Positions 1 to 37,764 of a stretch of 40,512 nucleotides of DNA are shown one piece after another. Numbering within the stretch: the first letter of the stretch is position 1; every line of letters starts with the position of its first letter. Origin of the DNA: Thermoprotei archaeon (GTDB lineage: Archaea > Thermoproteota > Thermoprotei > Thermofilales > B15-G2); the NCBI GenBank assembly GCA_003650815.1, contig QMSB01000007.1:1-40512 (forward strand), written 5' to 3'. The notes under the pieces were generated by a model. The model was not told where the DNA came from. It saw nothing but the letters and a program-made list of their open reading frames with translations, and ran no database searches. A program made the translations under genes and the position numbers.

Positions 1-2405
1 ATATCCCCGCTTTCTAACAATATTGTTTCAAATACAGCATAGCTAGTAAGGTATCCGTAATAAAGCATATTGTAATAAAACCCTATTCCTTGGAGGTTAT
101 ATAAAGATATAGTACCTCTGTATACTCCTATTGCTGAAGGCCACGGATACGCGTAGAGATCCATTTGAAAAGGAGCTATAATTCGGTACGGAGTGAAATA
201 TGTTGTGTAAGGAACTGTTCTCCACTCAGCTCTACCTGATCTAAAATCCATATAACCGTTAGTGCAGACATAGGCTCCTCTATAGGACAGTCCGTAAAAA
301 GGAAAAGTGAAGCCAAATGACTGATATACATAATTATCATCGCCGTACAGAATGTATGTTAATGACGATAATTCATAGAAAATATGAGGAAATTTCAGCA
401 CAATATAATACTCAGTGTCATACGCTGTACTATTGTTTATCGTATCTACATAACTCACATTGTAGTATTGCGAGGGGGGTTGTGCAGGCCCATTTTCTAA
501 TGTATTAAAATATATGTATACTTGAGAAATTGAGCCGGGCGTTATGTTCGCTGGAAAGACTATCCACATACACGCATTTGTCAGAGCGTTAAAGCCTGCC
601 GCAGTTGTGTAATTATATGGTATTTCTCGAAGCGTCGTAGCGTTAAGGACTCTTATCGAGTTAATGTCTAAGGTTCCAGCGACTCCGAGGTCTTCTAGAA
701 GTTTAGTAAAATTTATGAAAACTGGAGTAGGGAAATTTATTCTTCTAAATGGACTTGTTATATTTACTAAAACTCTATAGTATGGGGGTTTGCGTACATA
801 TAGTGTTGCATTAGCATAGCTTCCGTTATGGAGAATTACTACAGTTCCGTAGGAAGGCGGAAGATTTCCCTCTTCATAGCGTACCTCAAGAGAAACAGCG
901 ATGAGTTCTCTTACATAGAGTACTTCGCTTGTACTATTTTCTACAACTATTCCGAATACATCTGTTCCATTAGCTTTTACTAGCAGAGTTATCTTGGTAG
1001 CACTTGTGCCTGTAACATTTATTATATACTTAAAGAAGGCTTCTGCGCTCGAAGGCAAGACGTCGATCTTCACTGGTAGTGGTCCCAATACGATATTAGC
1101 GTCTCCATCGATTACTGATAAGCTCAAATATGTAGATACATTGTATACGTCTACGTCGCCAGTATTTCTCACTCTAATAGCTATAGTTGTGTTAAAGCCG
1201 CTTATGACGGTTGAAGGCGCAAAAATTACGCAGGATAAATTTCCTCCCTCTCTCACGTAGATTTCCCTTGAAGCTACTTCACTCGTGTATACAGTATGAC
1301 CTGTAACTGAATCATATCCATAAGCGTACACAAAAACAATTATTGTACCCCTACCCTGACATGTTAGGTTATATCTGAAGACTGCAAAACTATTAGCTGG
1401 TATAGTCTGAGGAGAGTCTAATAAGGCGTATTGAACACTTATTGATTGAGGATACTTACCTATCAGTGAAATCACTGGAGTAACATTATTTACATCATTT
1501 GGACCAAAGTTTGTCACATTGACTATAATAGTCACATTGTCTCCGCTCCGACACAAGTTGTTTTCGATAATTATTTTAGCGGAAATAGTGGAGATTCTAG
1601 GAGTAGGAACTACGCCGACAGTTCTATTAGCTGAGACAGATACGTTGAGTGAGAGGAAGTATGCTGTAAATGTCACGTTCTCGGCAGTGCCTAAGGAGTT
1701 CACAGTGATATTCCAGAAAAATATGGCAGTTGCTCCTGGAGGAAGGCGATCTATACTCGTCGGAGTTGCATTACTTATAGAAATATTAACGTCTTCCGGA
1801 GAGTAGCTCAATATAGGTGTTAGGTTAAATAAAGGTGAAGTAGAGTTATTGATAACAACTAGCCAAACAGAGCCTACACAACCATTATAGAGTACAGGGG
1901 GGCTTACAAATAAATATGCCATAGGAACTACTAATTTTAAATATGTTGAATAAACATTTCCTCTCGTAGAGAGTAATTTAAATAGATAATATCTAGTTTC
2001 ATTAGGAATTATATAAGGTATAGTTATATTGAAATAGAGGCACTCACCAGGAGAAATACTCCTAAAAGAGGGCTGTACAAGGGGGATATCTGTATAATTT
2101 CCTTTATCTATTAAAAAAGCGTAGATGTGCTGAGGTGTAAGTGTAAGAGAGCCTGTATTAAGTAGCCCGAATGTAATCATACAGTCGCCATTGGTGACAT
2201 TTATTTTAACTATAAATAGCTCAGCATTTTCAGCCATTTTTTCTCTTTCCTCTCTTACTACCTGAACACCAGTCCTACTTATCTCGCCTATACGATGTAT
2301 TAAGAAAAGCATAAAAGCTATCGAAAGCACTATTATTAAGATCATAAACATAGTAGCTATTGGAACAGATATTCCCTTACGGCGACCTAACACTGTATTC
2401 AGCAT
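1..2405 (-). CDS. Large surface/secreted protein with type IV pilin-like (class III) leader, repeated CARDB/NEW3-like beta domains and a C-terminal nidogen-like region; runs off the left edge (partial)
   Basis: Manual minus-strand translation from ATG at 2405: MLNTVLGRRKGISVPIATMFMILIIVLSIAFMLFLIHRIGEIS..., no stop found through position 1 (~801 codons). Visible end includes FGFTFPFYGLSYRGAYVCTNGYMDFRSG...IIAPFQMDLYAYPW, resembling NIDO-type domains. Missing from ORF track because no stop lies in the window. Confidence 0.85.
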   Translation of the reverse strand, partial: MLNTVLGRRKGISVPIATMFMILIIVLSIAFMLFLIHRIGEISRTGVQVVREEREKMAENAELFIVKINVTNGDCMITFGLLNTGSLTLTPQHIYAFLIDKGNYTDIPLVQPSFRSISPGECLYFNITIPYIIPNETRYYLFKLLSTRGNVYSTYLKLVVPMAYLFVSPPVLYNGCVGSVWLVVINNSTSPLFNLTPILSYSPEDVNISISNATPTSIDRLPPGATAIFFWNITVNSLGTAENVTFTAYFLSLNVSVSANRTVGVVPTPRISTISAKIIIENNLCRSGDNVTIIVNVTNFGPNDVNNVTPVISLIGKYPQSISVQYALLDSPQTIPANSFAVFRYNLTCQGRGTIIVFVYAYGYDSVTGHTVYTSEVASREIYVREGGNLSCVIFAPSTVISGFNTTIAIRVRNTGDVDVYNVSTYLSLSVIDGDANIVLGPLPVKIDVLPSSAEAFFKYIINVTGTSATKITLLVKANGTDVFGIVVENSTSEVLYVRELIAVSLEVRYEEGNLPPSYGTVVILHNGSYANATLYVRKPPYYRVLVNITSPFRRINFPTPVFINFTKLLEDLGVAGTLDINSIRVLNATTLREIPYNYTTAAGFNALTNACMWIVFPANITPGSISQVYIYFNTLENGPAQPPSQYYNVSYVDTINNSTAYDTEYYIVLKFPHIFYELSSLTYILYGDDNYVYQSFGFTFPFYGLSYRGAYVCTNGYMDFRSGRAEWRTVPYTTYFTPYRIIAPFQMDLYAYPWPSAIGVYRGTISLYNLQGIGFYYNMLYYGYLTSYAVFETILLESGD

Positions 2406-2823
2406 AATTACCCCTCCTACTAACAACCCTTATTCTAATAAGAGAAGAAGAGCTAACTGTAGAAGTAAAAGGAACTTTTATTACAGCGACTCTACTAGGC
2501 ATAAGCTTATAAGCAGGCAATAAATTTACAAGAGTATCATTAATGTAAACTGTACTTATGGTTACTAGTATATCACCATAATTATAAACATATATTGAAA
2601 TATTTAAAGTAGAAGAATCAGAGTTTTTTGAGACTGATACATGAATTATTTTAAATCTTTCACGCAAGGAAAGTTCTTCTTCTAATAGAAGTCTATTAAC
2701 AGCACTTTCAACATTTGATAAATATCCAGTATACCATAAGTAAATTATTAAACTAATTACCACAGTTATAACAAGCATCAACACAGAGGACACTACTTCA
2801 CTTACTGCTCTGTCATTTTTCAT
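2377..2823 (-). CDS. Archaeal type IV pilin / archaellin-like N-terminal domain protein
   Basis: N-terminus MKNDRAVSEVVSSVLMLVITVVISLIIYLWYTGY is a class III signal peptide with hydrophobic stretch; overlaps the start of the giant downstream protein by 29 nt. Confidence 0.85.
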   Translation of the reverse strand: MKNDRAVSEVVSSVLMLVITVVISLIIYLWYTGYLSNVESAVNRLLLEEELSLRERFKIIHVSVSKNSDSSTLNISIYVYNYGDILVTISTVYINDTLVNLLPAYKLMPSRVAVIKVPFTSTVSSSSLIRIRVVSRRGNYAEYSVRSP

Positions 2824-2921
2824 AACTAGTTATTTCTACATAGATTGTGATAAAAACTTTGTGCATATTTTTGAACGAAAAATCAATATATCTTGCCGTA
2901 AGTATCTTAGTAGAGATTTAA

Positions 2922-4427
2922 ATGAGAGCTGAACTAAAGCTTAAGGAAACACGTTTCAAAGGCTACATATTTAAGGAGTTTTATGCAGTTAACCCTCCTT
3001 TAGCTTATGTTGCTATAGCTAAAGACAAAAGAGGGTTCCTAAAATATCTAGTAATAGAGCCTCTTTTAAGCGATTACGAAAAGAAAGCTCTCGATGAAGT
3101 TAAAAGAATATTTCTAGATTTCATAGAGTCTAGTGAAAAGTTAATGATTGAAGCAAAGTCAGAAGAATTTGTGCAAAACACTATAGTAAAGATTATTAAG
3201 AAATTCAGGATAAAGGTACCAAAGCCTTCAATACACAAAATTATATATTATATTAAAAGAGACTTCCTAGGCTATGGGAAAATAGACGTTATGATAAGAG
3301 ACGAGAACCTCGAGGACATATCATGTGACGGAGTAGGCATACCTGTATACGTATGGCACAAATACTACGAGTCCATTCCATCAAACATAGTCTTTGAAAC
3401 CGAAGATGAGCTAGAAGCTATGATACACAGACTGGCCTACAAAGCTGGAAAACATATCTCAATAGCCAAGCCCATACTAGAGGGATCACTGCCCGAAGGA
3501 TTTCGTATACACCTTACCCTCAAAGAAGTCTCAATGAGAGGAGGCACATTTACCATAAGAAAGTTTAGAGCAGTACCCTTCACCATAATAGACTTAATAT
3601 CACTTAATACAGTATCTCCAGAACTAGCAGCCTACTTCTGGCTTGCAGTCGATAACATGAGGACAATAATAATAAGCGGAGCGACAGCAACAGGCAAAAC
3701 AACGATGTTAAACGCCATAGCCACTTTCATTAGACCCGAGCTGAAAATAGTGACTATCGAAGAAGTTCCTGAGATAAGACTTCCCCACGAAAACTGGATA
3801 CCTCTAGTAACTAGACCCTCTACTGAAGCGGGAGTAGAAAACATAACACTATACGATTTACTGAAGTCAGCTCTAAGGCAGCGGCCAGACTACATTATCA
3901 TAGGAGAGGTGAGAGGAGAAGAAGCATTTACTCTCTTCCAAGCAATAGCTTCAGGACACGCGGGCATGTGTACAATACACGCCGAAAGCTGCGAAGCCGC
4001 CGTAATGAGACTTCAAGCAAGACCAATGAATGTCCCTCCAGAACTCATACCTTTCGCTAATGTATTTGTGCAGATGGTGAGACATAAGCTAGGCGACAGA
4101 GCTGTAAGAAGAGTCTATGAAGTTTACGAAGTATTAGGCTACGATAGAGCTAAAGGAGAAGTGAAAATGAAGAGGGTATTTAGATGGGATGCGAGAAGAG
4201 ACATTTTTGTACAAGTCGGAGAAAGCGAGCTTCTCAAGAAAATAGCTGAAAGAAACTTCGTGACGCTAAATGAAATAATGGAAGAGTGGCATAGAAGAGC
4301 AGAAATACTTAATATACTAGCTTTAAGAAAAATAAAGAGCTTTGATGAAGTAGCAGAGTTTATCAATAAGTACTATAGGAGTCCGAGAGAAGCCTATACT
4401 TCGCTTAAGGCGGGGGCTATTATATAA
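2922..4427 (+). CDS. Type II/IV secretion system (pilus assembly, TadA/GspE/ArlI-like) ATPase
   Basis: Walker A GATATGKTT, Walker B-like DYIIIGEVRGEEA, ASGHAGMCTIHAES motif typical of secretion ATPases. Confidence 0.95.
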   Translation: MRAELKLKETRFKGYIFKEFYAVNPPLAYVAIAKDKRGFLKYLVIEPLLSDYEKKALDEVKRIFLDFIESSEKLMIEAKSEEFVQNTIVKIIKKFRIKVPKPSIHKIIYYIKRDFLGYGKIDVMIRDENLEDISCDGVGIPVYVWHKYYESIPSNIVFETEDELEAMIHRLAYKAGKHISIAKPILEGSLPEGFRIHLTLKEVSMRGGTFTIRKFRAVPFTIIDLISLNTVSPELAAYFWLAVDNMRTIIISGATATGKTTMLNAIATFIRPELKIVTIEEVPEIRLPHENWIPLVTRPSTEAGVENITLYDLLKSALRQRPDYIIIGEVRGEEAFTLFQAIASGHAGMCTIHAESCEAAVMRLQARPMNVPPELIPFANVFVQMVRHKLGDRAVRRVYEVYEVLGYDRAKGEVKMKRVFRWDARRDIFVQVGESELLKKIAERNFVTLNEIMEEWHRRAEILNILALRKIKSFDEVAEFINKYYRSPREAYTSLKAGAII

Positions 4428-5296
4428 TGCTAGAAGCATATGGCTACAAGTTCTATAGAACTTTCCTCGAGAGATATGAAGATAAATTGAGGTCTTTTAT
4501 AGATTTGTGTATAAAGGCAAAAATAAAGATGCACTATAAAGCGTACATCGGATTAACTTTTTCTATACCTTTTTTTACATTAGCCGCGTCCTTAGTTATC
4601 TTAGTGATATTACATATAGTACTATTGAAAGCCCCCCTCTTTATATCGATACTTCTTGGAATAATACTCTCGTTGGTCGTCTCACTATCCTTCTTAATGT
4701 TTATGATAGCTTACCCCCTCTACAAAGTTTCAGAGAGAAGAAGAATAATAGAAAAAAGTTTGCTTTATACAGTTAGCTATATGGCTGTATTAGCTGCGGG
4801 AGGAGCATCGCTGGAGCATATGTTAGAAAGAGTAGCAGAAGTAGAGCCTGAGAAAGAGATCAGAAGCGAATTTCAAGGTATAGTGAAGAGCATAAAAGTA
4901 CTTGGATATGACCTGCCTACAGCACTAAGTATTGCGGCTCAGCGAACAGCATCGCCAGTTTTCGCGAGGCTCCTTATAGGTTTAAGAGAAACCGCGCTTA
5001 CTAGCGGGGATCTAAGAAGCTACCTAAACTATGTGACGTCTACTATGATTAGAGAAAAGGAATCTAAACTCGAAAGCTTAGTAGAGACACTGAGCTTTCT
5101 CTCTGAAGTATATGTCGCAGCAATGGTCGCTGCACCAGTAATATTCATACTACTTTTCGTCTTGATGTCAATGATAGGTGGAGCGGTCTTCGGACTAGAT
5201 CCAGTAGTGCTGACTGTAGCCATTATTTTAATATACATGCCGTCGGCCTCTCTTGTAATGCTACTTCTATATGATAGCGTATTGTCTAGATCTTAA
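4427..5296 (+). CDS. Type II secretion/pilus assembly membrane protein (TadC/ArlJ-like)
   Basis: Multiple TM segments, T2SF-like cytosolic region; overlaps the ATPase stop by 1 nt. Confidence 0.85.
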   Translation: MLEAYGYKFYRTFLERYEDKLRSFIDLCIKAKIKMHYKAYIGLTFSIPFFTLAASLVILVILHIVLLKAPLFISILLGIILSLVVSLSFLMFMIAYPLYKVSERRRIIEKSLLYTVSYMAVLAAGGASLEHMLERVAEVEPEKEIRSEFQGIVKSIKVLGYDLPTALSIAAQRTASPVFARLLIGLRETALTSGDLRSYLNYVTSTMIREKESKLESLVETLSFLSEVYVAAMVAAPVIFILLFVLMSMIGGAVFGLDPVVLTVAIILIYMPSASLVMLLLYDSVLSRS

Positions 5297-5326
5297 AAAA
5301 TTTAAGCGGAGAATCATGAATACTCT

Positions 5327-6265
5327 GTGAGCATACTAATTCCAAAAGAGCTTAGATACTCAGTGTACACTCTATCCGGGATATTAGGTACAATTATCAT
5401 ATTCTTTCCTATACTTACAGGTATTAAAACTCTAAATGAATGTTTAGTATTTACATCTATAGGTATACCTTTACCCTATGACTTAATTTTCAATACTTCA
5501 GTTATATTTGGCTTAATTCTCATCTGTATACCAATAGCTCTCATAAACTACTTAGAAGACAGATATGTCAGAAGCTTAGAGGACAAACTACCAGACTTTT
5601 TCAAAGAATTAGCTGAGAGCACCAGAGCAGGGCTAAGTTTACCACAAGCCCTAGAGGATTACGCGAGAAGAGAGCGAGAGAGCGCTTTAGGTAAAGAGTT
5701 AAACAAAGTAGTGATAAGGTACAAGCTGCGAGCAGACTTCGAAGACGCTGTAAAAAGTCTAGCGAAAAGAATACCCACGACCTCAGTCCAGAGAGCTTAC
5801 GTAACACTAGTAGAAGCTTATAGGAGTGGAGGTAGAATGACTGAAGTCTTAGATTCAGCTGCTAGAATATACTCTATGATAAGAGACTACGAACAGAGCA
5901 AGAGAGGAAGACTAAAACACTACGTGTGGATAATATACATGAGCGTGTTTCTCTTTAGCTTTATAGCAGTAATAATAATGGAGTCATTCATAAGGCCTAC
6001 AGCAGAAATAGGCAAAGCAGTAGGAGGAACCTTTATTTTCGGTACACTAGATGAGCGAATTTATGAAGGACTGTTCTTTCTAAGCTCTCTTGTTCAGTCG
6101 ATTATGGGAGGATTCATAGCAGGAAAGATCGTTGAAGGATCCGCTACCAAAGGTATAAAACACGTAATTATAATGTTAATCGCGGTAGCTTTCTTCTTTA
6201 GTATTTTAAGTATTATACTGAGAGGCTACTTTGAATCTATAATAAAAGGATCTATCTCCATGTAA
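5327..6265 (+). CDS. Second type II secretion/pilus assembly membrane protein (TadC/ArlJ-like), GTG start
   Basis: T2SF-like pattern LPDFFKELAESTRAGLSLPQALEDYARRE...TTSVQRAYVTLVEAYRSGGRMTEVLDSAA plus C-terminal TM segments. Confidence 0.85.
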   Translation: MSILIPKELRYSVYTLSGILGTIIIFFPILTGIKTLNECLVFTSIGIPLPYDLIFNTSVIFGLILICIPIALINYLEDRYVRSLEDKLPDFFKELAESTRAGLSLPQALEDYARRERESALGKELNKVVIRYKLRADFEDAVKSLAKRIPTTSVQRAYVTLVEAYRSGGRMTEVLDSAARIYSMIRDYEQSKRGRLKHYVWIIYMSVFLFSFIAVIIMESFIRPTAEIGKAVGGTFIFGTLDERIYEGLFFLSSLVQSIMGGFIAGKIVEGSATKGIKHVIIMLIAVAFFFSILSIILRGYFESIIKGSISM

Positions 6266-6280
6266 TCTAATTAATTCAGA

Positions 6281-7225
6281 TTAACTTCTAATATCTGAAA
6301 CTATATTGTCATAAATCTTAGTTAATTTATCTCTGAGTTCTTCAACGCTATTAAAAGTAATACACATAAACTCCGTTTCATAGCTCTCTTTCACACCACT
6401 TCCTTTTAAAACTAAAAGGACAGACTTTACTGCATTTACATCTCTTATATCGATGTATTTTGCATAAGATCTCACATAGATGTCCGAGCAGTCTCCATCA
6501 GCGAGCTTTACGTCAATATAGAGTCCTTTATTTTCTCTTATAGCTAGAAATGAGAAAACATGATTAAGTCCGCTGGCTCCTTTAGCTATAGCCTCCTCTT
6601 TTACACTAAATCCTCTTTCCTCGAAAAATGATCTAACTATATTTAAAACGATTGATTCCTCAAGTTCCTTAAATTTCTGCTCTACTATTTCATACTCATA
6701 TATTCTCTCATAAATAGCTTCCCTATGAGTGAACTCTATGCCACAATTTAAGCAATAATGCTTAACAGCCGGTTCATCAAATCTAGCTTTACAGGAATTA
6801 CATTCCATTATTTCTCCTAAAAGCTCTAAATCCTCACTTCTAATGACTTCTCCACATGTTGGACATTTTTCTTTGAATGTCGACAAGACATCAATGTGAC
6901 CACAAGGTACATGCATAACTAGCTTTATTCTCTCTACATCAAATGAGCCGCAGTTTGGGCATAAGTACTTTGATAGTGCTAGGTGAGAGTTACAATTAGG
7001 ACACAGTATTATTCTCGTAAATTTTCCTCTTTTAAGGTATCCTTCAGAAGCTAGCTCTTCTAATAGGTCAACGACTTCAAAGTAGTTGCCTATATCAGGA
7101 TAATATATTCCTTCTACTTCTACGACAGGTTTTAATACTTTTATATCTTTTGTTAGTAGAGAATATACAAGATATCTAACATTCTCTCTGGTAATTTCAG
7201 TTTTACTAAAGCTTTTTTGGCTCAT
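6281..7225 (-). CDS. TackOD1-type zinc-binding protein with possible C-terminal nuclease-fold domain
   Basis: Series of CPNC/CPTC/CNSC zinc ribbons (CPNCNSHLALSKYLCPNC, CPTCGEV, CNSCKARFDEPAVKHYCLNC); resembles TackOD1 family. Confidence 0.7.
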   Translation of the reverse strand: MSQKSFSKTEITRENVRYLVYSLLTKDIKVLKPVVEVEGIYYPDIGNYFEVVDLLEELASEGYLKRGKFTRIILCPNCNSHLALSKYLCPNCGSFDVERIKLVMHVPCGHIDVLSTFKEKCPTCGEVIRSEDLELLGEIMECNSCKARFDEPAVKHYCLNCGIEFTHREAIYERIYEYEIVEQKFKELEESIVLNIVRSFFEERGFSVKEEAIAKGASGLNHVFSFLAIRENKGLYIDVKLADGDCSDIYVRSYAKYIDIRDVNAVKSVLLVLKGSGVKESYETEFMCITFNSVEELRDKLTKIYDNIVSDIRS

Positions 7226-17540: not shown

Positions 17541-19163
17541 ATGTATAAAGTTTTTGAAATACGAGAAAAAAATATAGTGAGAAAAAATCTATTGAGAGCA
17601 GACATTAAAGTAGCTATCTGCTATCCTTCTATATACAGAGTAGCAGTATCTAGCCTAGGCTATCAGTTAATATACTTTCTCCTAAACTCTCAGGAAGAAA
17701 TAGCATGTGAAAGAGCAGTACTATCTTCTCAAAAAGGACCAGAACCCCCTGTAAAAACACTAGAGTCGGGTTCTCCTCTCAAGTTCTTCGATATAATCAT
17801 TTTCTCAGTACACTACGAGCTAGATTATCCTAACATAGCACGCATGTTGCTAGCCTCCGGTATAAACCCACTAAAACACAAAAGAGGGCTCAAAGACCCC
17901 ATAGTAGTTGTCGGCGGGCCTCCAATAACAGCAAACCCAGTCCCCCTAGAAAGTATAGCTGATGTTCTCTATATAGGCGAAGCAGAGTACTCACTACTAA
18001 AACTCGTCTACGAAATACATGCTCTAGAAAACAGGAAAGATCTCTACAAAATCTCTGATATAAAAGGAGTCTACGTACCCGGTAGCGAAACAAGAGCACA
18101 AAGAGCTTGGGTAAGAGATCTAGATAAAGCATTTCATCCATCAAGCCAGATAATACCGTTATCTGATAAAAGTGAATTTCAGCCAGTTTTTGGCAGAGCT
18201 GCACAACTAGAAGTGACGAGGGGTTGCGGCAGAGGATGTAGGTTTTGTCTCTTAGGATATTCTTTTAGACCATATAGGGAGCGGTCTTTTCCGGTAATAG
18301 AAAGTCTCCTTAAAAAAATCATAGAGAAAAATGGCGTCTTAAAAATAGTTTTAATAGGTTCTTCTCTCAGCGACTATAAGTATCTCCAAAAATTGCTGGA
18401 AACGTGTATTGAAGAGAATATCCAAGCTTCGCTCCCTGCGCTAAGGACAGACGCTGTAGAAGATGAAGTCTTAGAGCTAATACCGCGTCTAGGGCAGAGA
18501 ACTTTGACGTTCGCGCCTGAAACAAGCATTCGCTTAAGAATCAAATTAAATAAACCTATTGAAAACTCTGAAATAATCGAAAAAACAGAGAACGCTGTAG
18601 CAAAAGGAGTTAAAAACATCAAACTTTATTTTCTCTATGGAGTTCCAGGGGAAAGCAAACAAGATTTGATAGAAATAGTAGAGCTAGTTAAGAGAATCAA
18701 AAATAAAGTTAAATTATCTAAAGAAAATATAAGAGTTTCAATAAATCCTCTCATACCCAAAGCACACACTCCTCTTCAGTGGACAGTAATAGAAGAGGTG
18801 AGCATACTAAGAAGAAAAAGAAGATTTCTTTTAGAGAAACTCGGCTCTCTAGCCCGAGTAGAGGGCTATGATCCCTTTGAGGCGCAGATACAAGCACTTC
18901 TATCATTAGGCGGCTCTCAGCTCGGAGAAATAGTAGCATATGTAGCTGAAGCCGGGGGAGGAAGGCAAGCCTGGAGAAAAGCTCTGAGAAGATTTCAAAT
19001 AAACGTACAGAAATATCTGGAGAAAACTATAGCGAAAGAGCCTTGGAGTGTAGTAGACGTAGGGGTATCAAGAGATTTCCTCGAAAAAGAGTATAAGAAA
19101 TTCCATGAAGGAATACTTACACCTCCCTGTAGCACTTTCTGCTCTAAATGCGGTGTCTGTTAG
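17541..19163 (+). CDS. Radical SAM protein (B12-binding-like N-terminal region)
   Basis: CGRGCRFCLLGYSFRPYRERS (CxxxCxxC) core, FYLYGVPGE-like LYFLYGVPGESKQD, C-terminal CSTFCSKCGVC. Confidence 0.9.
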   Translation: MYKVFEIREKNIVRKNLLRADIKVAICYPSIYRVAVSSLGYQLIYFLLNSQEEIACERAVLSSQKGPEPPVKTLESGSPLKFFDIIIFSVHYELDYPNIARMLLASGINPLKHKRGLKDPIVVVGGPPITANPVPLESIADVLYIGEAEYSLLKLVYEIHALENRKDLYKISDIKGVYVPGSETRAQRAWVRDLDKAFHPSSQIIPLSDKSEFQPVFGRAAQLEVTRGCGRGCRFCLLGYSFRPYRERSFPVIESLLKKIIEKNGVLKIVLIGSSLSDYKYLQKLLETCIEENIQASLPALRTDAVEDEVLELIPRLGQRTLTFAPETSIRLRIKLNKPIENSEIIEKTENAVAKGVKNIKLYFLYGVPGESKQDLIEIVELVKRIKNKVKLSKENIRVSINPLIPKAHTPLQWTVIEEVSILRRKRRFLLEKLGSLARVEGYDPFEAQIQALLSLGGSQLGEIVAYVAEAGGGRQAWRKALRRFQINVQKYLEKTIAKEPWSVVDVGVSRDFLEKEYKKFHEGILTPPCSTFCSKCGVC

Positions 19164-20428
19164 TCTGCAAGCCCCGCTACAAAGAACCCGCAGGTACCGT
19201 GAATATGAGGAAACAGTCTTTTCACCTTCGTGGAGCAAAGAAATCCTCTATACCCAGAACTGCCTATAGTCCTAGTCAAGCACTTGTATCCCTTACTCAC
19301 GAAATAGTCTACTACCTTCTCTCCCTCCTCAGGAAGAATAGAACACGTAGAATATACGATGCTGTGCACCTCCGGGAGCGATAGAGCAGCCTCCAATAAA
19401 CTTCTCTGAAGGTTCGAGTACTTCTCAACAATGTTTGGGAGAGAAAGCTGGATTCTTATAGCAGGATCCTTAGACATGACACCACTCGAAGAACAAGGAG
19501 CATCTACAAGCACTTTAGTTACTCCACAGCCTTTTCTAACAAAAACTTCTCTAGAGTCTGCCTTAATAACATCTACTTTGCTCAAATCCACTCCATGTAA
19601 CCTCAAGAGCTTTTTCATAATTTTAATACGATCCCATGAAATATCACATGCAAGAACACGGCACTGATTCTCAAGTAGCTGAAAAATAAGAGAAGTCTTC
19701 AGACCAGGAGCCGCGCACAAGTCTAAAATATAGTCATTTCTCTCAAGAGTCAAAGCGTCTACAATAGCTACAGATCCTTTGTCTTGAATTACAAGCTTAC
19801 CTTCCCTAACATATTTAAGCGCGTAGACAGGAGCTCTACTCTCCTTAACTCTTAACATAAATTCATAGTCTTCATCTAACTCAACTTCAACGTGTTTCCT
19901 GGTCAAATAATCCATCGCCTCTCTAACACTAATCTTCAACGTGTTTACACGTAACCACACAGTCTCTTCCGCCATAGAGCTAAATAGTTGTTCAAGTTCT
20001 TGAAAAGACATGTACTTAGAGAGCTTCTCTACAATCCACAGAGGCACTGAATACTTAACCGACAGCTTTTCTCCACAGCTAAGCTCTTCCAATAAAGCCT
20101 CAGGAGAAACTACCTTCCCTCTCTTAGACAGCTTTTTCTTAAGCCTCAACGTAGCCTCACGTAGCTCAGCATAGTTCTCGCCGTAAAGAACAATCCATGT
20201 CCTAACAATATTTTTCCTAGAGGCTCTTCCGAAAAACTCTCTGGCAATATCTCTTAGAAAAAAGTATTTTGAGACAACATCTCTGCCAATAACATAGTAT
20301 AGTCTCAAGGGTCTCTTAACTTTAAGATCGTTTCTAGTATATATAAATGCTTTATCAAAAGAAGTATTTTTCTCTTCAATATAATATATTAACCTAGAGA
20401 CAAATGATACTATCTGGTCTATTTTCAT
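19160..20428 (-). CDS. NOL1/NOP2/Sun (NSUN/RsmB-type) RNA m5C methyltransferase
   Basis: LDLCAAPGLKTSLIFQL, VDAPCSSSGVMSKDP, YSTCSILPEEGE motifs. Confidence 0.9.
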   Translation of the reverse strand: MKIDQIVSFVSRLIYYIEEKNTSFDKAFIYTRNDLKVKRPLRLYYVIGRDVVSKYFFLRDIAREFFGRASRKNIVRTWIVLYGENYAELREATLRLKKKLSKRGKVVSPEALLEELSCGEKLSVKYSVPLWIVEKLSKYMSFQELEQLFSSMAEETVWLRVNTLKISVREAMDYLTRKHVEVELDEDYEFMLRVKESRAPVYALKYVREGKLVIQDKGSVAIVDALTLERNDYILDLCAAPGLKTSLIFQLLENQCRVLACDISWDRIKIMKKLLRLHGVDLSKVDVIKADSREVFVRKGCGVTKVLVDAPCSSSGVMSKDPAIRIQLSLPNIVEKYSNLQRSLLEAALSLPEVHSIVYSTCSILPEEGEKVVDYFVSKGYKCLTRTIGSSGYRGFLCSTKVKRLFPHIHGTCGFFVAGLAD

Positions 20429-21801
20429 TATTTCCTCTTTTTCTTAGGCAATATTACCTCCTTAGGCGCTTTCGGGAACAGCTCTAAATATCGCCTCAGA
20501 ACCTTAGGCACAACTACTGTCCCGTCAGGCTCCTGGAAGTTCTCTAAAATCGCGGTTATAGCCCTAGTCGATGCTATAGCAGTGCTATTAAGAGTGTGTA
20601 CATACTCTCGTTCTCCAGTCTTTCTTCTCCTAAACCTTATTTTCAGTCTATAGCTTTGCCAGTCAGTACAGTTACTACAGCTGACCATTTCTCGGTACTT
20701 TCCTTGGGCAGGCATCCATGCTTCGAGGTCATACTTCTTAGCAGCCACTACTCCAAGGTCTCCCGTACATATATTTACTACTCTATATGGTACTCCTAAA
20801 CCCTGCCATAGTTTCTCAGCATTCTCTAAAAGCTTCTCATGCCATTCCCAGCTCTCTTCTGGTCTACAGAAGACAAACTGCTCTACTTTATGGAACTGAT
20901 GCACCCTGAAAATGCCTTTAGTGTCCTTGCCGTGAGCACCTGCTTCTTTACGGAAACATGGACTTATTCCAGCGTAAAGAAGGGGCAAGTCCTTCTCCTC
21001 TAGAATCTCATTCATATGGAGCGCCGCTATTGGGTGCTCTGAAGTAGCTATTAAGTACAAGTCTTCATCTTCGATCTTATATATGGCGTCCTCGAAGTCA
21101 GAGAGCGCTGTTACACCTTCATAAGGCTTCCTTCTAAGCATATAAGGAGGCATAACTATCTTAAATCCCTGCTGGGCGAGAAAATCTAAAGCATATAGTA
21201 AAAGAGCTAAGTCTAGCCAGACTAAGTCATCGAAGATATAGAAGAACCTAGAGCCAGCTACTTGAGCCGCCTTAAAGGTATCTCCGAGACCCAGAACCTC
21301 AAGCATGTCTGCATGACCAATAGGCTTCCAGTCGATAACCTCATACTCTACGCTAAATCCCTTAGTCTGTTCCTTAAAGCGGTCAAGATATCTTCTCCAA
21401 ACTTTAGGCTTCCCCCAGAACTTTACTGGAACATTATCTTCTTCATCTTCTCCTTGAGGTACAGACTCGTGAACTATGTTAGGTATACTCAACAGAACTT
21501 CTTCACGCTCAGCCTCTATTTTCCTTAAAATTTTCTCTTTCTCTTCTATAAGCTTCAGTAAACTCTTAGCTTCAGCCAGCTTCTTCTCTCTAGCTTCTCC
21601 CTTAAGCCTACCTATCTCCCTAGAAATCTGGTTATGTTTTCTTCTCAAGTCGTTAAGCTCAGTAAGCGTCTTCCTCCATAAAGTATCAAGCTCAAGAGCT
21701 TTGCCTACAATAGCCTCGCTAAAACCTCTCATCCGCATATTCCATTTGAGCTTCTCTGGATCATTTCGTAGATAGTAGAGTATAGACCACATGGCAGGCA
21801 T
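20428..21801 (-). CDS. serS: Seryl-tRNA synthetase (canonical type)
   Basis: N-terminal coiled-coil tRNA arm, class II motifs CFRKEAGAHGKDTKGIFRVHQFHKVEQFVF and LNSTAIASTRAITAILENFQEPDG. Confidence 0.97.
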   Translation of the reverse strand: MPAMWSILYYLRNDPEKLKWNMRMRGFSEAIVGKALELDTLWRKTLTELNDLRRKHNQISREIGRLKGEAREKKLAEAKSLLKLIEEKEKILRKIEAEREEVLLSIPNIVHESVPQGEDEEDNVPVKFWGKPKVWRRYLDRFKEQTKGFSVEYEVIDWKPIGHADMLEVLGLGDTFKAAQVAGSRFFYIFDDLVWLDLALLLYALDFLAQQGFKIVMPPYMLRRKPYEGVTALSDFEDAIYKIEDEDLYLIATSEHPIAALHMNEILEEKDLPLLYAGISPCFRKEAGAHGKDTKGIFRVHQFHKVEQFVFCRPEESWEWHEKLLENAEKLWQGLGVPYRVVNICTGDLGVVAAKKYDLEAWMPAQGKYREMVSCSNCTDWQSYRLKIRFRRRKTGEREYVHTLNSTAIASTRAITAILENFQEPDGTVVVPKVLRRYLELFPKAPKEVILPKKKRK

Positions 21802-29822: not shown

Positions 29823-30920
29823 ATGAGCCAGTTTAAATATAGGGCCGACACTGAAGGAATGCTGAACACATACCTCGACTGGTATAAACAAGCCGAGTAT
29901 ATTCTTTCCCTCAAACCTTCTTTACCAGATAAATTCAAAACCTCTAAAGGAGCCCGAGAATATCACAGACCACAGCACATCATAATATGTGGTTTAGGAG
30001 GATCAGGAATAGCAGGAGACCTCGTAAAAGACGCTCTAGGTAACGAGATAAAAGTCCCAATAGAAATAGTCAAAGAATATACGCTCCCCTCATATGCGGG
30101 AGAAGAAACACTAGTCATCGCAGTAAGCTACTCAGGAAACACCGAAGAAACTCTCTCATGCTACGTAGAAGCAGTAGAGAAAAACTGCATGATAGCCAGC
30201 ATTTCCTCCGGAGGCTACCTCAAAAAATTCTCTGAAAAAACAGGAGCTCTCCACATAGACCTAATGTCAGGATACCAGCCGAGAGCGTCACTTCCGCAAC
30301 TCCTTTTCGCCATACTGAAAACCCTTGAAACACTTAAAATAGTCTCAGGACAGCCCTACGCAGAAGTAATCCAAGTACTAAGAGAAAACAAGACAAATTT
30401 CTCCCCCGAAAACGAGCAAAATAAAGCAAAAGAGCTCGCAGAAAAACTATACAGAAAAATACCAGTCATATACGGGCACAGCTTCTACAAGGGAGTAGCC
30501 ATAAGACTGAAAAACGAGTTCAACGAAAACACCAAAATACCGGCTAAAGCCGAGGTCTTCCCAGAACTAGATCACAACGATATAGTAGGATGGGAAGACA
30601 ACGAACTATCAAAAAACTTCACAGCGATAATACTGAGAAACGAAGAAGAATACATGAAAGAGAGAATAGAAGCAACAATAGACATAATGAAGAAATATGG
30701 CGCAGAAGTCATAGAGCTTAGCAGCAGGGCAGAAACAGTTCTGGCGAAAATAATGGACATCTGCCACTTAGGAGGACTAGCGAGCATATACCTAGCACTA
30801 CTATACGGAAGAGACCCCGCCTTAATAGAACCAATATCACTACTGAAAAAGAGGCTCGGAGAAAAAGTAGGTCTGCAGAAGAAACTACTAGAAAAACTAT
30901 CAAAAACAGTATCTCAATAA
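29823..30920 (+). CDS. Bifunctional phosphoglucose/phosphomannose isomerase
   Basis: IIICGLGGSGIAGDL, AVSYSGNTEETLSCY, PELDHNDIVGWE motifs of archaeal PGI/PMI. Confidence 0.93.
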   Translation: MSQFKYRADTEGMLNTYLDWYKQAEYILSLKPSLPDKFKTSKGAREYHRPQHIIICGLGGSGIAGDLVKDALGNEIKVPIEIVKEYTLPSYAGEETLVIAVSYSGNTEETLSCYVEAVEKNCMIASISSGGYLKKFSEKTGALHIDLMSGYQPRASLPQLLFAILKTLETLKIVSGQPYAEVIQVLRENKTNFSPENEQNKAKELAEKLYRKIPVIYGHSFYKGVAIRLKNEFNENTKIPAKAEVFPELDHNDIVGWEDNELSKNFTAIILRNEEEYMKERIEATIDIMKKYGAEVIELSSRAETVLAKIMDICHLGGLASIYLALLYGRDPALIEPISLLKKRLGEKVGLQKKLLEKLSKTVSQ

Positions 30921-31549: not shown

Positions 31550-33055
31550 CTAGTTTCTCTCAACTATTATGTCTACGAAGACAGGACCCTTGATATCTAC
31601 TACTCCCTGTTTTTCATGAATATATTTGAGTACATTCGACGAGATTCTAATATTAGCGTCAGCTGGGCCCTCAACCCATCTTACTCGCAACCACCCAGAC
31701 TCACCATCCTCTACGAGTCTAGCAAACTTCTTGACAATGAAGTCTATGTAACGTCCAACATAAACACCCTCATGTTCCTCTAAGCTGCTAATAATATTGC
31801 CCCTATGCACATAGATCCTGTTAAAGGCTGCTGGACCAGCATAGGGCTTAGGATCAGGCTCATATAAATATATCTTGATCTTATCATCACGGTATACTTC
31901 AAGCTTAAAGGGCCCTGTCTTATCTCTATATTTCTCAATGTTTTTGAGGATTACTTTCTCTAGTTTCTCACCGTAAGATGTTCTAGGAGCTAAAATAGGC
32001 TTTATTCTAGCCGCTATATCTTCATCGCTTATTACTGAGTATAGATAAGGAAATACTAGTACTCTTATGTCATCTACATCATATAGTACCTGAGCTAGCC
32101 GCTCAACACCTATACCGAAGTTGTACACAGGATAGGGGATCTCGTAGTTAGCTAAGGCAATAGGAGAGTAGAGTCCGAAAGTACCTATCTCTTGAAGGTT
32201 GCCACGGTACTCCACGTATACTTCATACTCCTTCCCGTAAGCATAGTACCTCGACGTATCCTTCTTCTTAACAATCTTTACAGAAGACAGCCCTAGATGA
32301 CTCATTATCGACTTAGTTAACTCAACTGCTGCTTCCTCGTTTAAGCTATCGTCAACAACCACAATCGACGCTGAGTGATAGTAGCGTAAATGCTCTTTAT
32401 CTACTCTCTGCTCCCTTCTAAAAACCCAATCGATTGAAAATAGTCTTAGAGGAGGGTCTAAGTACCTGAGCACGCGGCTCAAGGTAATAAACCAGGCAGC
32501 TGTCATGTGACTCCGCAGAGTAGCAGCTAGAGGACTAGGCTTTAACTCAAAGAAGTCTTTAAGAATACTGATAAGCCTCAAGCACTGCTTATCCGATATC
32601 CCTAGCTCCCTCTTTAAAACCTCTATGAGCTCATCCGCCTCTATTTCCCGCTCCCTATACTTTCTTAAAACATTCTTAAGTATATTGAAGTCTATTTCAC
32701 CTACTTCTTTTCTTATCTTATCTATGTATTCTGTACTAAGCCCTATATCTGGTCTCGGCAGTCCCGCCAGAAAATATATTCTGTCGAGAATTACTGGAGC
32801 TTCTGGACCATATTGCTTGTAAACATCTTCTACTGGTATAAATACAGGATTAATGACTTCAGTGAAGCCGAGTGAAAGAAGCTTTTCACGTAAAGTAAAT
32901 ATCAGGTCGACTACTGGGTGAGATTTACCCATGGATTTTACTAAAGGTATTCTTCTGGTAATATCTGGGAATATATCTGAGTATTCTAGCCACAAGTCTT
33001 CGAAACTCTTGTTTTCCCTAAGCTTTTTCCTGATTTCATCTATTGGTAAAACCAT
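31550..33055 (-). CDS. sepS: O-phosphoseryl-tRNA(Cys) synthetase (SepRS)
   Basis: LRSHMTAAWF, FSIDWVFRREQRVDKEHLRYYHSASIVV (class II motif 2 region), IGTFGLYSPIALANYEIPYPVYNFGIGVERLAQVLYD (motif 3); adjacent to SepCysS. Confidence 0.93.
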   Translation of the reverse strand: MVLPIDEIRKKLRENKSFEDLWLEYSDIFPDITRRIPLVKSMGKSHPVVDLIFTLREKLLSLGFTEVINPVFIPVEDVYKQYGPEAPVILDRIYFLAGLPRPDIGLSTEYIDKIRKEVGEIDFNILKNVLRKYREREIEADELIEVLKRELGISDKQCLRLISILKDFFELKPSPLAATLRSHMTAAWFITLSRVLRYLDPPLRLFSIDWVFRREQRVDKEHLRYYHSASIVVVDDSLNEEAAVELTKSIMSHLGLSSVKIVKKKDTSRYYAYGKEYEVYVEYRGNLQEIGTFGLYSPIALANYEIPYPVYNFGIGVERLAQVLYDVDDIRVLVFPYLYSVISDEDIAARIKPILAPRTSYGEKLEKVILKNIEKYRDKTGPFKLEVYRDDKIKIYLYEPDPKPYAGPAAFNRIYVHRGNIISSLEEHEGVYVGRYIDFIVKKFARLVEDGESGWLRVRWVEGPADANIRISSNVLKYIHEKQGVVDIKGPVFVDIIVERN

Positions 33056-34184
33056 ATTTTTCGAACCTCTCCACGATTTCTACCAAAGAATCAACAAAGT
33101 AATTAGCATCCTCTTTTTCTAAAAGATAGGTACTTATCTTCATCCTCTTAGTAATCCCCGGCTTTATTCCAATGATCTTTCTCTTCTTAAGCTCCTTATA
33201 CAGGAAAAAGCGGTCACGTATCTTAACTGATATCTCATAAAGACGCGGTGTCTCAAAGTGCAGCAAATCGTGTCTACGAGGTCTCTCTCCCAGCAATCTG
33301 AACTCTAGCTCTTTTTCAAGCCTGTCAGCCACATACCTTGCTATATTCACTTTAGCGTCCCACTTAACTACTCTCTTCTTTAAGTAGGGAAGAACTTTGA
33401 GAAGACAGATAGCAGGTGCTCCTCTAACAGTACAGCCAAGTAGCTCTACCTCTTTTCCCTCCTTAAACTTACTCTTCCTGAGAACAATCTCTGCTTCTCT
33501 ACCTACTATACCTAGAACTCCAATAGGACCTGTACAAGCCATGCTCTTATGACCTGAGCCGACGACAAAGTCTGCCCCAGTATCTCTAAGCGAAAACTTC
33601 ATTCTGCCAATAGCGTATGCAGCATTGATTAGCACGGGGACTCCGTGACTCTTACAAATATCCACTATCCTCTTCAGCTCAGGTAAATTACCATAATATC
33701 CATCGGGATAAGTGACTAGCGCAAGAAGAGGAGGTTTTCCGTGCTCCCTCTCAACTTCACTAATCTTTTTCTCATAGTCTTCAGCTACCACACAGTACTC
33801 TGGGTGCTCAGTAGTAGCAGTAAAAACTACATCAAGCATACTTCTCTCAGCAGCTAATATACTAGTATAGTGAGCATTGCCGTCAGCAACTACAACAGGA
33901 GCTCTAGCCCCCTTCAGCACATATTCCTTGAACATCGCAAACATCACAGTAAACATTCCCTCTCTCGCACCATGAACTAGCCTAACATAATCACAGTCTA
34001 TAAACTCCTCTAAACTCTCAACAAGCTTCTTTATATTAGGCTTTCTTAACTCATGAAGATCTCCAGTACAGTATAAACATGTAGAATATCCGTCTAAATA
34101 TTCTAAAAGCTCTCTCTTAATTCCATCAGGAACTACTCCACCACTCCTAATAGGATCGACCAAGAGCACCTTCTTCTGTGACAC
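33036..34184 (-). CDS. pscS: Sep-tRNA:Cys-tRNA synthase (SepCysS), PLP-dependent
   Basis: DGYSTCLYCTGDLHELRKPNI, VRLVHGAREGMFTVM, VADGNAHYTSILAAERS, LVTYPDGYYGNLPEL, GADFVVGSGHKSMACTGPIGVLG (PLP Lys), LLGCTVRGAPA. Confidence 0.94.
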   Translation of the reverse strand: MSQKKVLLVDPIRSGGVVPDGIKRELLEYLDGYSTCLYCTGDLHELRKPNIKKLVESLEEFIDCDYVRLVHGAREGMFTVMFAMFKEYVLKGARAPVVVADGNAHYTSILAAERSMLDVVFTATTEHPEYCVVAEDYEKKISEVEREHGKPPLLALVTYPDGYYGNLPELKRIVDICKSHGVPVLINAAYAIGRMKFSLRDTGADFVVGSGHKSMACTGPIGVLGIVGREAEIVLRKSKFKEGKEVELLGCTVRGAPAICLLKVLPYLKKRVVKWDAKVNIARYVADRLEKELEFRLLGERPRRHDLLHFETPRLYEISVKIRDRFFLYKELKKRKIIGIKPGITKRMKISTYLLEKEDANYFVDSLVEIVERFEKYGFTNR

Positions 34185-34321
34185 ATCTGCAGACCACTAC
34201 TACTTCTAGGTAATAAAGATTACGTGCTGAGCTATTACACTTAATGATAGACACAGGAAATGACTACCATAACATGTATATGTGTCAAAAAACATAAATA
34301 TTTACCATTAGAGAATTAAAG

Positions 34322-34380
34322 CAGATGATTAGACCAGGCCGGCACTGAATAGTGATGAGCTCCTGCCCCATTAATGATTT
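34322..34380 (+). ncRNA. Candidate C/D box-like sRNA (imperfect terminal boxes)
   Basis: D'-like CTGA (34345-34348), 3 nt, C'-like GTGATGA (34352-34358); GATGA near the 5' end (34324-34328); TATA-like CATAAATATTTACC about 25 nt upstream. Terminal C and D boxes deviate from consensus. Confidence 0.25.
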
Positions 34381-34469
34381 TAGCATCAATAAGTCTTCTA
34401 GTATATTTATGTCAGAGATAGGAAGACCTTATAAGGCAAATCAAATCTATAAGCTTGGGTTAACTGAAA

Positions 34470-35567
34470 ATGCATTACTTAGAGATGTCTTACCTAGTAT
34501 TTGAGAGAACAAAAGAGCTCGTAAGCAAGTATTTCTACATACTCTACAGCGAAATGGAAGGGCTTATACCTGTCTTCTATATTCAGTATGAAAAGGATCT
34601 TAAGAAAAAGTTCAAGTACCTAGCACTAGAGGCTAAAAGAGAAGGTTTTCTGCCTCTCCTCAGGCAGAAAGATGAATACTTAGTAATAAAAGTAGTACCA
34701 TTCAAAGCTAAGAGAAGAAATCCTAAAACCGCTTTAATTTTATTTGCGGCAACTTTTTTCACAGTACTTATAGACGGCTTTATAAGAGCCTCTGACAGAT
34801 TTCTGCCTGAAATAATAGGCGAAGTGAATGTGCCGTTGATGACAATATCTTACACTGTAGCACTGCTAGCTGTAATTGGAGTACACGAGATGGGACATAA
34901 AATAGCGTCTATGATTCATCAAGTGAAAACATCCTTACCCTACTTCATTCCAGCCCTCCCTGGAATAGGTATAGGAGGTACTTTCGGCGCAGTAATACTT
35001 CAAGAAGAGCCTCCAACAAATAAAGATGAATTATTCGACATAGGGCTTAGTGGCCCCATATTCGGCTTTATAGCAACTATAGCCGTGACTCTTGTAGCCG
35101 CGAAGATCTCTGGAGTAGTTTCAGTAAAGCAGCTTAAACAGTGGACACAGCAGGGATACTCTTTCACAGTAATACCGACACCACTTCTCATGACTCTTAT
35201 ATTCTCCTACTATAGTCCCCTACCTGGGCCAGACTACATGTACTACTTACATCCCCTAGCCTTTGTTTCCTGGGCAGGTTTCATAATAACTGCACTAAAT
35301 CTCTTCCCTGTGTGGCAGCTCGACGGAGGGCATGTCATAAGAGCACTACTAGGTCCAAAAAAGGCTAGAATACTCTCAATACTTAGCGTAATTCTAATGG
35401 CTGCACTAGGCTACTGGTTTATGGCACTCGTCCTTTTGCTATTCATGATGATAGGAGGAAAACCAGTGGAGCCTCTCGACAATGTGTCTCCCTTAAGCCT
35501 TTCACGTAAACTACTGATATTGGGATATATCATAATACTAATACTATGCTTACCTCTACCGTGGTAA
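34470..35567 (+). CDS. Site-2 protease (M50) family membrane metalloprotease
   Basis: VIGVHEMGHKIAS (HExxH), LFPVWQLDGGHVIRALLG, multiple TM segments. Confidence 0.92.
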   Translation: MHYLEMSYLVFERTKELVSKYFYILYSEMEGLIPVFYIQYEKDLKKKFKYLALEAKREGFLPLLRQKDEYLVIKVVPFKAKRRNPKTALILFAATFFTVLIDGFIRASDRFLPEIIGEVNVPLMTISYTVALLAVIGVHEMGHKIASMIHQVKTSLPYFIPALPGIGIGGTFGAVILQEEPPTNKDELFDIGLSGPIFGFIATIAVTLVAAKISGVVSVKQLKQWTQQGYSFTVIPTPLLMTLIFSYYSPLPGPDYMYYLHPLAFVSWAGFIITALNLFPVWQLDGGHVIRALLGPKKARILSILSVILMAALGYWFMALVLLLFMMIGGKPVEPLDNVSPLSLSRKLLILGYIIILILCLPLPW

Positions 35568-35598: not shown

Positions 35599-37764
35599 GT
35601 GAGAAAACTTCTAGCAATTATCTTTACAGTACTGTATTTATCAGTATTTTTAAATCAGTTACTCATAACTGTAAAATGCTCGAATATGGAGGTAAGCGTG
35701 AGAAAAAGTATAGAATATTACTGCATATTAAGTCTTAACGGAGAAATCGAGGAGTGGAAAGTAGACATAGAAATCATTGTAGATGGAGTAGGGAGAGCTA
35801 CAGTAGTAGACAGAATGTGGTATATCTCTCCAGAAACCCTTTTAGAAGCTGAACCTAAACCTTCTACTATATTGTTTTACGGGAAGTACTCTAAACTCAT
35901 ATGGAGAGACATAAAAATACCTACTGTAATAAAATACTCAGCAAGACTTTTCTCAGCTCCCCCGCTAAAGTACTCTATCGAAGTGCGTGTTAATGGAGAA
36001 AAGGCTAACATTACTCAGAGGAGCGGTGTGAATTACATTAAAGCTGACGTAGGAGACTTAATATCAGTAAATATTACCTTAGTAAACTCTAAAGGGAAGT
36101 GGCTCTGTGAAGGAGAGGAAATAGTAGTACCGCTGAACCTAATAGTAATGTTTAGCTTGCCGTCGTACTTAGGTCTCCTATCACTAACACCTGAGTCAAA
36201 TGTTTCATTAACTATAGGTGATGGTAAGACAGATGTTTGGATGTTAACTCTATACGATAAAGTCACTATATGTTTTAAAGCCAGAGTGACAGGAACTAAT
36301 CCTTGGGGAGAAGTTCCCCTCAAGTCAATTACCGTTCAAGTGGTAGATAGACCTGACGTAGTGTCAAAGAAGGCTGAAGAAATGTTATCTAAATTAGAAG
36401 AAAACATCGAGAGCTTAAAATATATTACTAGAAAACTTGAGCAGGGAATAAATGCTTCAAAAACACTGGCTAAGGGACTGATGAATGTCTCATCTCTACT
36501 AAACTACACAGGATACTCTTTAGTGTCAATAGCTGGGGCATTGAAAACTTCTGGAGAAAAGTTAATTGAAGCCTCTAAAGAAATGAGCAAACTCCTATCT
36601 TCCTTTGAGTCAGCTATTAGTGAAGCGTCATCAATAGTATCTACGTTAGATAGCACAGTAGAGTCTCTTAAGTCAGGTGAAGTAAACTACGAGCAGCTTA
36701 CCCAGATGATAGATCAGCTAATAGAGCTACTAGAAGCCACTGGACAAAATCAGTCTCTCATAGATACACTCGTAAAACTTAAAAACTTACTAATAGAACT
36801 AGAGGCACATCAAGAAGAGCTAGTAAAAGAACTAGAGTACATATCGGGGTTAGTGAAATCTTTAAGTAATGCTTTAAAAGAGGGAAAAGAAGCCTCAGAG
36901 GAACTAGAGAAAGCAGGTCAAATGTTTACCAAACTTGCAGAAAGTGTTGAGAAAATAGGGTTCACAAACATAAATGTATCAAAAGGACTATATAATATTT
37001 CACAAAACCTGTTCTCAGCAGTAAACTCAAGTATAAAGCAGCTCGACTCACTTAAAGAAAAACTTAGCGAATTAGAAAACACTGAAAGCCGATTGAGAAG
37101 ACTCAAGAAATGTGCAGACGCGGAGTGGAACTTGTACTACAAGTACTCACTTGAAGTAGCGTTAAGCGAGGTTACAGAAACACCTGAAATAAAAATAATT
37201 CAAACAGGTAAAGTAGTCAGAGATATCAGAGCAGAAACACCCTATGTAGTTTACGGAGTCCTAGTAAGAGACACCACTAATATAAAACCAGTAATAGCGT
37301 CTAGCGAAGACATCATAAAAGACGCAAGCGTACATATGCTAAACAAATCAGTGCTCATATGTCCTCTATCAAATGGAAGCATCCTCAAAACAGCTTTAGG
37401 AACCCCCCTCGAGCTTATAAACGCCACTAGCCCCAAAGTAGAACTAGATACTTGCGCCTTCCCAGCTAACATAAGCTTTTCAGTAGCATTTACGTTAGAG
37501 CTAATACTACCCAGAATACTTTCTCTCAAGAAGTTCACTCCAGAAATCATAGGGGAAAAAAGACCCTCACCTCAAAGAAAAATATCGAGCGAACTACTAG
37601 TACTAACAACAGCAATCCTGTGTACAGCAATACTTTCAGCAGTCAAATTGCTTAAAAAGAGGAGAAAAAAGATTGAAGTAGACATAACAGACATCATCAA
37701 CGAAATAGAGAAAATACGAAGAGAAATAGCAGCCAGAACTACATCAAGTGATCAAACATCCTAA
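35599..37764 (+). CDS. Secreted membrane-anchored protein with long coiled-coil region, GTG start
   Basis: Signal peptide, N-terminal beta-rich region, roughly residues 255-510 heptad-rich coiled coil, C-terminal TM and charged tail. Confidence 0.75.
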   Translation: MRKLLAIIFTVLYLSVFLNQLLITVKCSNMEVSVRKSIEYYCILSLNGEIEEWKVDIEIIVDGVGRATVVDRMWYISPETLLEAEPKPSTILFYGKYSKLIWRDIKIPTVIKYSARLFSAPPLKYSIEVRVNGEKANITQRSGVNYIKADVGDLISVNITLVNSKGKWLCEGEEIVVPLNLIVMFSLPSYLGLLSLTPESNVSLTIGDGKTDVWMLTLYDKVTICFKARVTGTNPWGEVPLKSITVQVVDRPDVVSKKAEEMLSKLEENIESLKYITRKLEQGINASKTLAKGLMNVSSLLNYTGYSLVSIAGALKTSGEKLIEASKEMSKLLSSFESAISEASSIVSTLDSTVESLKSGEVNYEQLTQMIDQLIELLEATGQNQSLIDTLVKLKNLLIELEAHQEELVKELEYISGLVKSLSNALKEGKEASEELEKAGQMFTKLAESVEKIGFTNINVSKGLYNISQNLFSAVNSSIKQLDSLKEKLSELENTESRLRRLKKCADAEWNLYYKYSLEVALSEVTETPEIKIIQTGKVVRDIRAETPYVVYGVLVRDTTNIKPVIASSEDIIKDASVHMLNKSVLICPLSNGSILKTALGTPLELINATSPKVELDTCAFPANISFSVAFTLELILPRILSLKKFTPEIIGEKRPSPQRKISSELLVLTTAILCTAILSAVKLLKKRRKKIEVDITDIINEIEKIRREIAARTTSSDQTS

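Follow-up and report, generated by a model that had tools for sequence, protein, structure and literature searches.

The SepCysS-SepRS locus

The window, that is the whole stretch of 40,512 nucleotides that was analysed, carries an overlapping pair of genes encoding O-phosphoseryl-tRNA:Cys-tRNA synthase (SepCysS) and O-phosphoseryl-tRNA synthetase (SepRS), the enzymes of a tRNA-dependent cysteine route that is best known from methane-producing archaea. The coordinates, strand, protein lengths and overlap listed in Table 1 are all as given in the original prediction, which had been made from the DNA alone. The overlap is consistent with translational coupling of the two genes.

Table 1. Features of the SepCysS-SepRS locus and its surroundings, in window coordinates
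Feature	Position	Strand	Remarks
SepCysS (O-phosphoseryl-tRNA:Cys-tRNA synthase)	33036..34184	-	382 aa, GTG start, first gene of the pair
SepRS (O-phosphoseryl-tRNA synthetase)	31550..33055	-	501 aa, ATG start, second gene of the pair
Overlap of the SepCysS and SepRS frames	33036..33055	-	20 nt, from ORF coordinates
Shortened base-37 segment of SepRS	31739..31795	-	residues about 421-439, anticodon-binding domain; from SepRS alignment, residue table and model
Intergenic stretch upstream of SepCysS	34185..34469	.	no SepCysSn-like ORF, no tRNA gene
Canonical SerRS	20428..21801	-	60-71% identity to same-order genomes; outside the pathway

Both proteins were identified with NCBIfam equivalog models. 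SepCysS scores 448.8 bits against TIGR02539 (cut-off 365.25) and matches PDB entry 2e7i with E=8e-105, while SepRS scores 383.1 bits against TIGR00470 (cut-off 380.65), passing by only 2.5 bits, and matches PDB entries 2du7 (3e-91) and 2du3 (1.5e-88). Identification of the SepRS frame as PheRS-alpha and of the SepCysS frame as a cysteine desulfurase was rejected, the best PheRS and desulfurase models reaching only 80.5 and 32.6 bits respectively, and the assignment first proposed for the pair is therefore upheld. The Pfam SepRS_C model (PF18006) has no match anywhere in the genome containing the window, which marks the window SepRS as divergent; this 31-position C-terminal model was not taken as defining for SepRS and, among 14 controls, was matched only by M. 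jannaschii and M. acetivorans.

SepCysS bears no SepCysE-like N-terminal extension, in agreement with the original prediction, the ORF list holds no plausible SepCysSn frame in the 285 nt upstream of SepCysS, and at the locus neither SepCysE nor SepCysSn occurs as a fusion or as a gene adjoining the pair. ARAGORN reports no tRNA in the window. The identities of TackOD1, FUN14 and the canonical SerRS, already recognised among the surrounding genes, were confirmed, and the pairing of SerRS with a neighbouring rSAM gene (17541-19163) is also seen in same-order genomes. The TackOD1 zinc-ribbon protein belongs to a row of genes (2377-7225) that also includes an archaeal type IV pilin-like gene, a secretion ATPase and two T2SSF membrane proteins. 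A further frame at 35599-37764 encodes a 721-aa protein with weak coiled-coil-like matches only (SMC/Rad50-type, MCE).

Catalytic residues and recognition of base 37

Aligned with its A. fulgidus and M. jannaschii counterparts, the window SepCysS shows K213 in GSGHKS as the PLP lysine, and C36, C39 and C251 as the equivalents of the CxxC and LGC cysteines; the lysine and the three cysteines had all been pointed out from the sequence beforehand. The protein belongs with the A. fulgidus (clade I) SepCysS and has no 8-aa insertion. A 7-residue insertion at FKEYVLKGARAP of the window SepCysS is common to the SepCysS of an uncultured archaeon, SRR6823441_bin.24 (L044, CALBHZ010000070.1; L044:5858-6964), and absent in the other 8 aligned SepCysS. 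Two further SepCysS in the comparison, L043:4358-5428 and L065:2794-3867 (Aenigmatarchaeota and Woesearchaeota MAGs), have all three Fe-S/persulfide cysteines missing, with YDIS or YDLS in place of CxxC and LGS in place of LGC. Neither the L043 nor the L065 genome yielded a CysRS above cut-off, and a cysteine-free SepCysS is possibly the sole Cys-tRNA route of these two organisms.

The class II motifs of SepRS are intact, with motif 2 at FRREQ 212-216 and motif 3 at GVER 316-319, as had been read from the sequence. The residue comparison covered 80 SepRS loci from the genome scan and, in addition, SepRS of A. fulgidus and M. jannaschii. The Sep pocket is kept in full, T185, S228, S230, T292, N312 and G314 being identical to A. 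fulgidus T188, S231, S233, T305, N325 and G327. The anticodon contacts E399, D401 and N412 correspond to A. fulgidus E418, E420 and N432, and D occurs at the position of D401 in half of the aligned family. The roles of these pocket and anticodon residues are presumably those seen in the A. fulgidus structures. The AlphaFold model of the window SepRS (pLDDT 89.9, pTM 0.71) has A. fulgidus SepRS 2du3 as its closest solved structure (Foldseek E=8e-45, TM 0.79), with an rmsd of 15 A that makes the domain arrangement of the model uncertain.

The divergence of SepRS, its borderline TIGR00470 score and a shortened anticodon-binding segment would suit a SepRS-like enzyme of non-canonical kind, acting on a different amino acid or in a different role, as has been suggested for the Thermoplasmata SepRS-like proteins. 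Such a function is nevertheless highly improbable, as the Asn-X-Gly motif (discussed in PMC8762117), which the Thermoplasmata proteins have lost, is kept in the window SepRS (N312-F-G314), all other Sep-pocket positions are identical to those of A. fulgidus and the operon partner is an intact SepCysS. To judge from these sequences, both SepRS and SepCysS are probably catalytically active in the indirect cysteine route. SepRS would attach O-phosphoserine to tRNA-Cys, K213 and PLP of SepCysS would eliminate phosphate from Sep-tRNA-Cys, and the three cysteines would deliver persulfide sulfur to yield Cys-tRNA-Cys, which would feed the ribosome, with free cysteine arising after deacylation or protein turnover. 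Judged at the locus, the pair would operate without SepCysE or SepCysSn.

A. fulgidus SepRS is thought to read m1G37 through Ile444 and the helix after it (PMC5424206). The window SepRS lacks this motif, since Ser424 occupies the Ile444 position and the following helix is absent; the model secondary structure (E420-424/E431-435) predicts a short hairpin in its place. The aligned base-37 segment comprises 33 residues; A. fulgidus has 41, and most other SepRS have about 46. L044 SepRS is shortened in the same way, and short segments are also found in some DPANN (33-37) and some Asgard (36-38) SepRS, so the shortened module is not unique to the window enzyme. Nor is the m1G37 motif obligatory for SepRS membership, because bacterial SepRS without it is active in vitro (PMC5424206). 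The window SepRS probably reads base 37 in a relaxed manner. Loss of the base-37 module as a co-adaptation to an A37 tRNA-Cys is unsupported, because the tRNA-Cys genes of the L044 genome and of same-order relatives carry G37, together with a GCA anticodon and U73. Searches of the 85%-complete window assembly with Rfam and with a purpose-built model found no tRNA-Cys; the best match of the latter model in the genome is a CAT tRNA, and the L200 tRNA called Cys by ARAGORN is without the GCA anticodon. Introns of 13-20 nt lie directly after G37 in the tRNA-Cys genes of six same-order genomes and one same-class genome (L234, L235, L238, L240, L243, L244 and L262).

Host genome and the co-resident CysRS

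The window genome, a MAG, totals 1.99 Mb over 175 contigs, with a completeness of 85.4% and a contamination of 2.9%, and forms its own family among the genomes searched. Contig C1 of the same-order genome G008 was recognised as the Thermofilum pendens Hrk 5 plasmid NC_008696.1, from which the window genome is placed in the same order as T. pendens, presumably the heat-loving Thermofilales. This position indicates that the organism is not a methanogen and bears out the TACK-like, non-methanogen setting suggested at the outset.

The contig is native to the window genome and is not misbinned. By tetranucleotide profile, the window stands at a distance of about 0.13 from 20 further contigs in the genome, like the contig-to-contig distances, as compared with 0.33-0.53 for L044, L043 and L045. 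In a third-order Markov comparison every 4-kb slice, and the pair alone, fit the window genome best over 65 other loci, with same-order loci as the runners-up. The codon use of the pair lies inside the range of its contig neighbours. The two genes flanking the pair, encoding a PGI/PMI (29823-30920) and an M50 protease (34470-35567), have nearer relatives in other families or classes of the phylum, and the M50 protease is almost absent from the order; this outside-order affinity fits gene exchange, yet it is outweighed by the other evidence of nativeness. A binning or assembly artefact, in which the pair, with or without the rest of the contig, would come from another organism, might be suspected from these flanking genes and from the fragmentation of the MAG, but it is barely credible given the fit of the slices and of the pair, the same-order identity of the SerRS located 10 kb from the pair on the same contig, and the neighbourhood shared with same-order genomes. 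On composition, codon use, SerRS identity and neighbourhood, misbinning or a chimera was rejected.

SepRS above cut-off is present in the window genome and in none of the 26 other same-order or the 54 other same-class genomes, while among 40 genomes from more distant parts of the phylum 8 have it. SepCysS above cut-off was found in the window genome only, among 61 searched. A search for cysS, suggested with the original prediction, located CysRS on another contig of the window genome (G000:C1:16913-18325, 592.8 bits), with 57-60% identity to the CysRS of same-order genomes G005, G006 and G009; a CysRS search over 41 genomes gave scores above cut-off in 40. As CysRS is also encoded, the window genome holds a dual system, direct and indirect, for cysteine. 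CysRS and SepRS are both present in Methanosarcina acetivorans and Methanococcus maripaludis (PMC8762117). In contrast to the window genome, no CysRS above cut-off was found in the SepRS-bearing L045 (Thermoprotei MAG) and L060 (Bathyarchaeota MAG), genomes G126 and G127. The window CysRS would charge tRNA-Cys with free cysteine in parallel with the indirect route, and a division of labour between the pair and CysRS is probable. The cysteine synthase candidate of the genome is a cysKM-like gene on contig C67, below cut-off. It lies in a cluster (L270:2602-8803) with genes for a TrpB2-like protein, SufS, an IscS/NifS-type desulfurase and an IscU/NifU scaffold, which is possibly a sulfur-transfer hub.

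Phylogeny and origin of the pair

The original prediction described the pathway as only patchily known outside methanogens and Archaeoglobus. Its occurrence in other archaea stands, but the extent was put too low, SepRS and SepCysS having been described from across the TACK, Asgard and DPANN lineages and from some bacteria (PMC5424206, PMC8762117), with TACK cases published in 2017 and 2022.

The nearest relative of the pair is L044, with 54% identity in SepRS and 55% in SepCysS. In SepRS trees of 81 and 40 rows, the root of which is not known, the window and L044 proteins group with support of 100/100 with a stem length of about 0.84-0.9 changes per column in both trees. The free trees place this group outside the TACK, Bathyarchaeota, Asgard, Hadarchaeota, Altiarchaeota, DPANN and euryarchaeal groups. 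Window and L044 also group together in the SepCysS tree. In AU tests, union of the window-L044 SepRS with Thermoproteota SepRS is not rejected (p=0.154), nor is union with DPANN SepRS (p=0.083). The best matches of L044 genes to taxa are mixed, within a comparison set that is biased. L044 also agrees with the window in gene order, in the shortened base-37 segment and in having CysRS, although its two genes nearly abut (2-nt gap) where those of the window overlap, and the identity of the proteins is limited.

The A. fulgidus pathway (SepRS 2du3; SepCysS1 2e7i) has the same two enzymes, pocket and catalytic residues and three cysteines, and likewise no 8-aa insertion; the window differs in its overlapping genes in one operon, in the presence of CysRS, and in the shortened base-37 segment with the change of Ile444 to Ser. 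SepRS-SepCysS operons are found characteristically in DPANN, early euryarchaea and bacteria, while published TACK SepRS genes adjoin TRAX and endonuclease V (PMC8762117). The window pair is of the operon kind and without a TRAX neighbour. It shares adjacent genes, a clade I-like SepCysS and a shortened base-37 segment with the DPANN/bacterial operon type (Mukai 2017, 2022), including the gene order in the case of L121, but the tree gives no support to their union, and DPANN L043 and L065 differ in their opposite gene order and in a SepCysS without the three cysteines. With the TACK SepRS (Methanomethylicia, Nezhaarchaeota, Bathyarchaeota; TRAX-linked clade I) it has the enzyme family and the superphylum in common, while the SepRS belongs to another branch, at about 40% identity. 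The pair departs from the kind usual in TACK, its SepRS standing outside the TACK clade in the free trees and its genes forming one operon with a clade I SepCysS and no TRAX.

An old horizontal acquisition is the most likely origin of the pair. The genes could instead be a vertical relic, a working pair from a TACK or archaeal ancestor that was lost in the other sampled Thermofilales and the rest of the class and replaced there by CysRS. Native composition and codon use, the unrejected grouping with Thermoproteota and the proposal that the pathway is ancestral in archaea (PMC5424206) fit such descent, which is nonetheless unlikely, as it requires losses across all the same-order and same-class genomes searched, the gene order and SepCysS type are unlike those of published TACK loci with TRAX/EndoV neighbours (PMC8762117), and the free trees separate the window SepRS from the TACK clade. 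Taken as a whole, the locus is probably best explained by horizontal gain, as a working indirect cysteine route beside CysRS. An unsampled lineage akin to L044 would have been the source of this old gain, and the genes would since have taken on the composition of their host.

The pair is an intact occurrence of a known pathway on a deep, separate SepRS branch, rather than a new kind of system. The occurrence in this order, the SepRS lineage standing apart and the presence of CysRS in the same genome look new, and the literature searched contains no report of the SepRS-SepCysS pathway in Thermofilales. On a bolder and rather doubtful reading, the window and L044 would represent an undescribed deep SepRS-SepCysS lineage of thermophilic archaea that charges G37 tRNA-Cys without an m1G37 checkpoint, in parallel to CysRS, with two synthetases sharing one tRNA-Cys pool, and that could be an ancestral relic among the 'modern Crenarchaeota', a group believed to have lost the system. 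The new SepRS branch is useful for asking whether tRNA-dependent cysteine synthesis was ancestral in archaea or spread by transfer. The window genome provides a natural case of CysRS and SepRS together outside methanogens, and studies of tRNA recognition and genetic-code expansion can make use of a SepRS that lacks the base-37 module.
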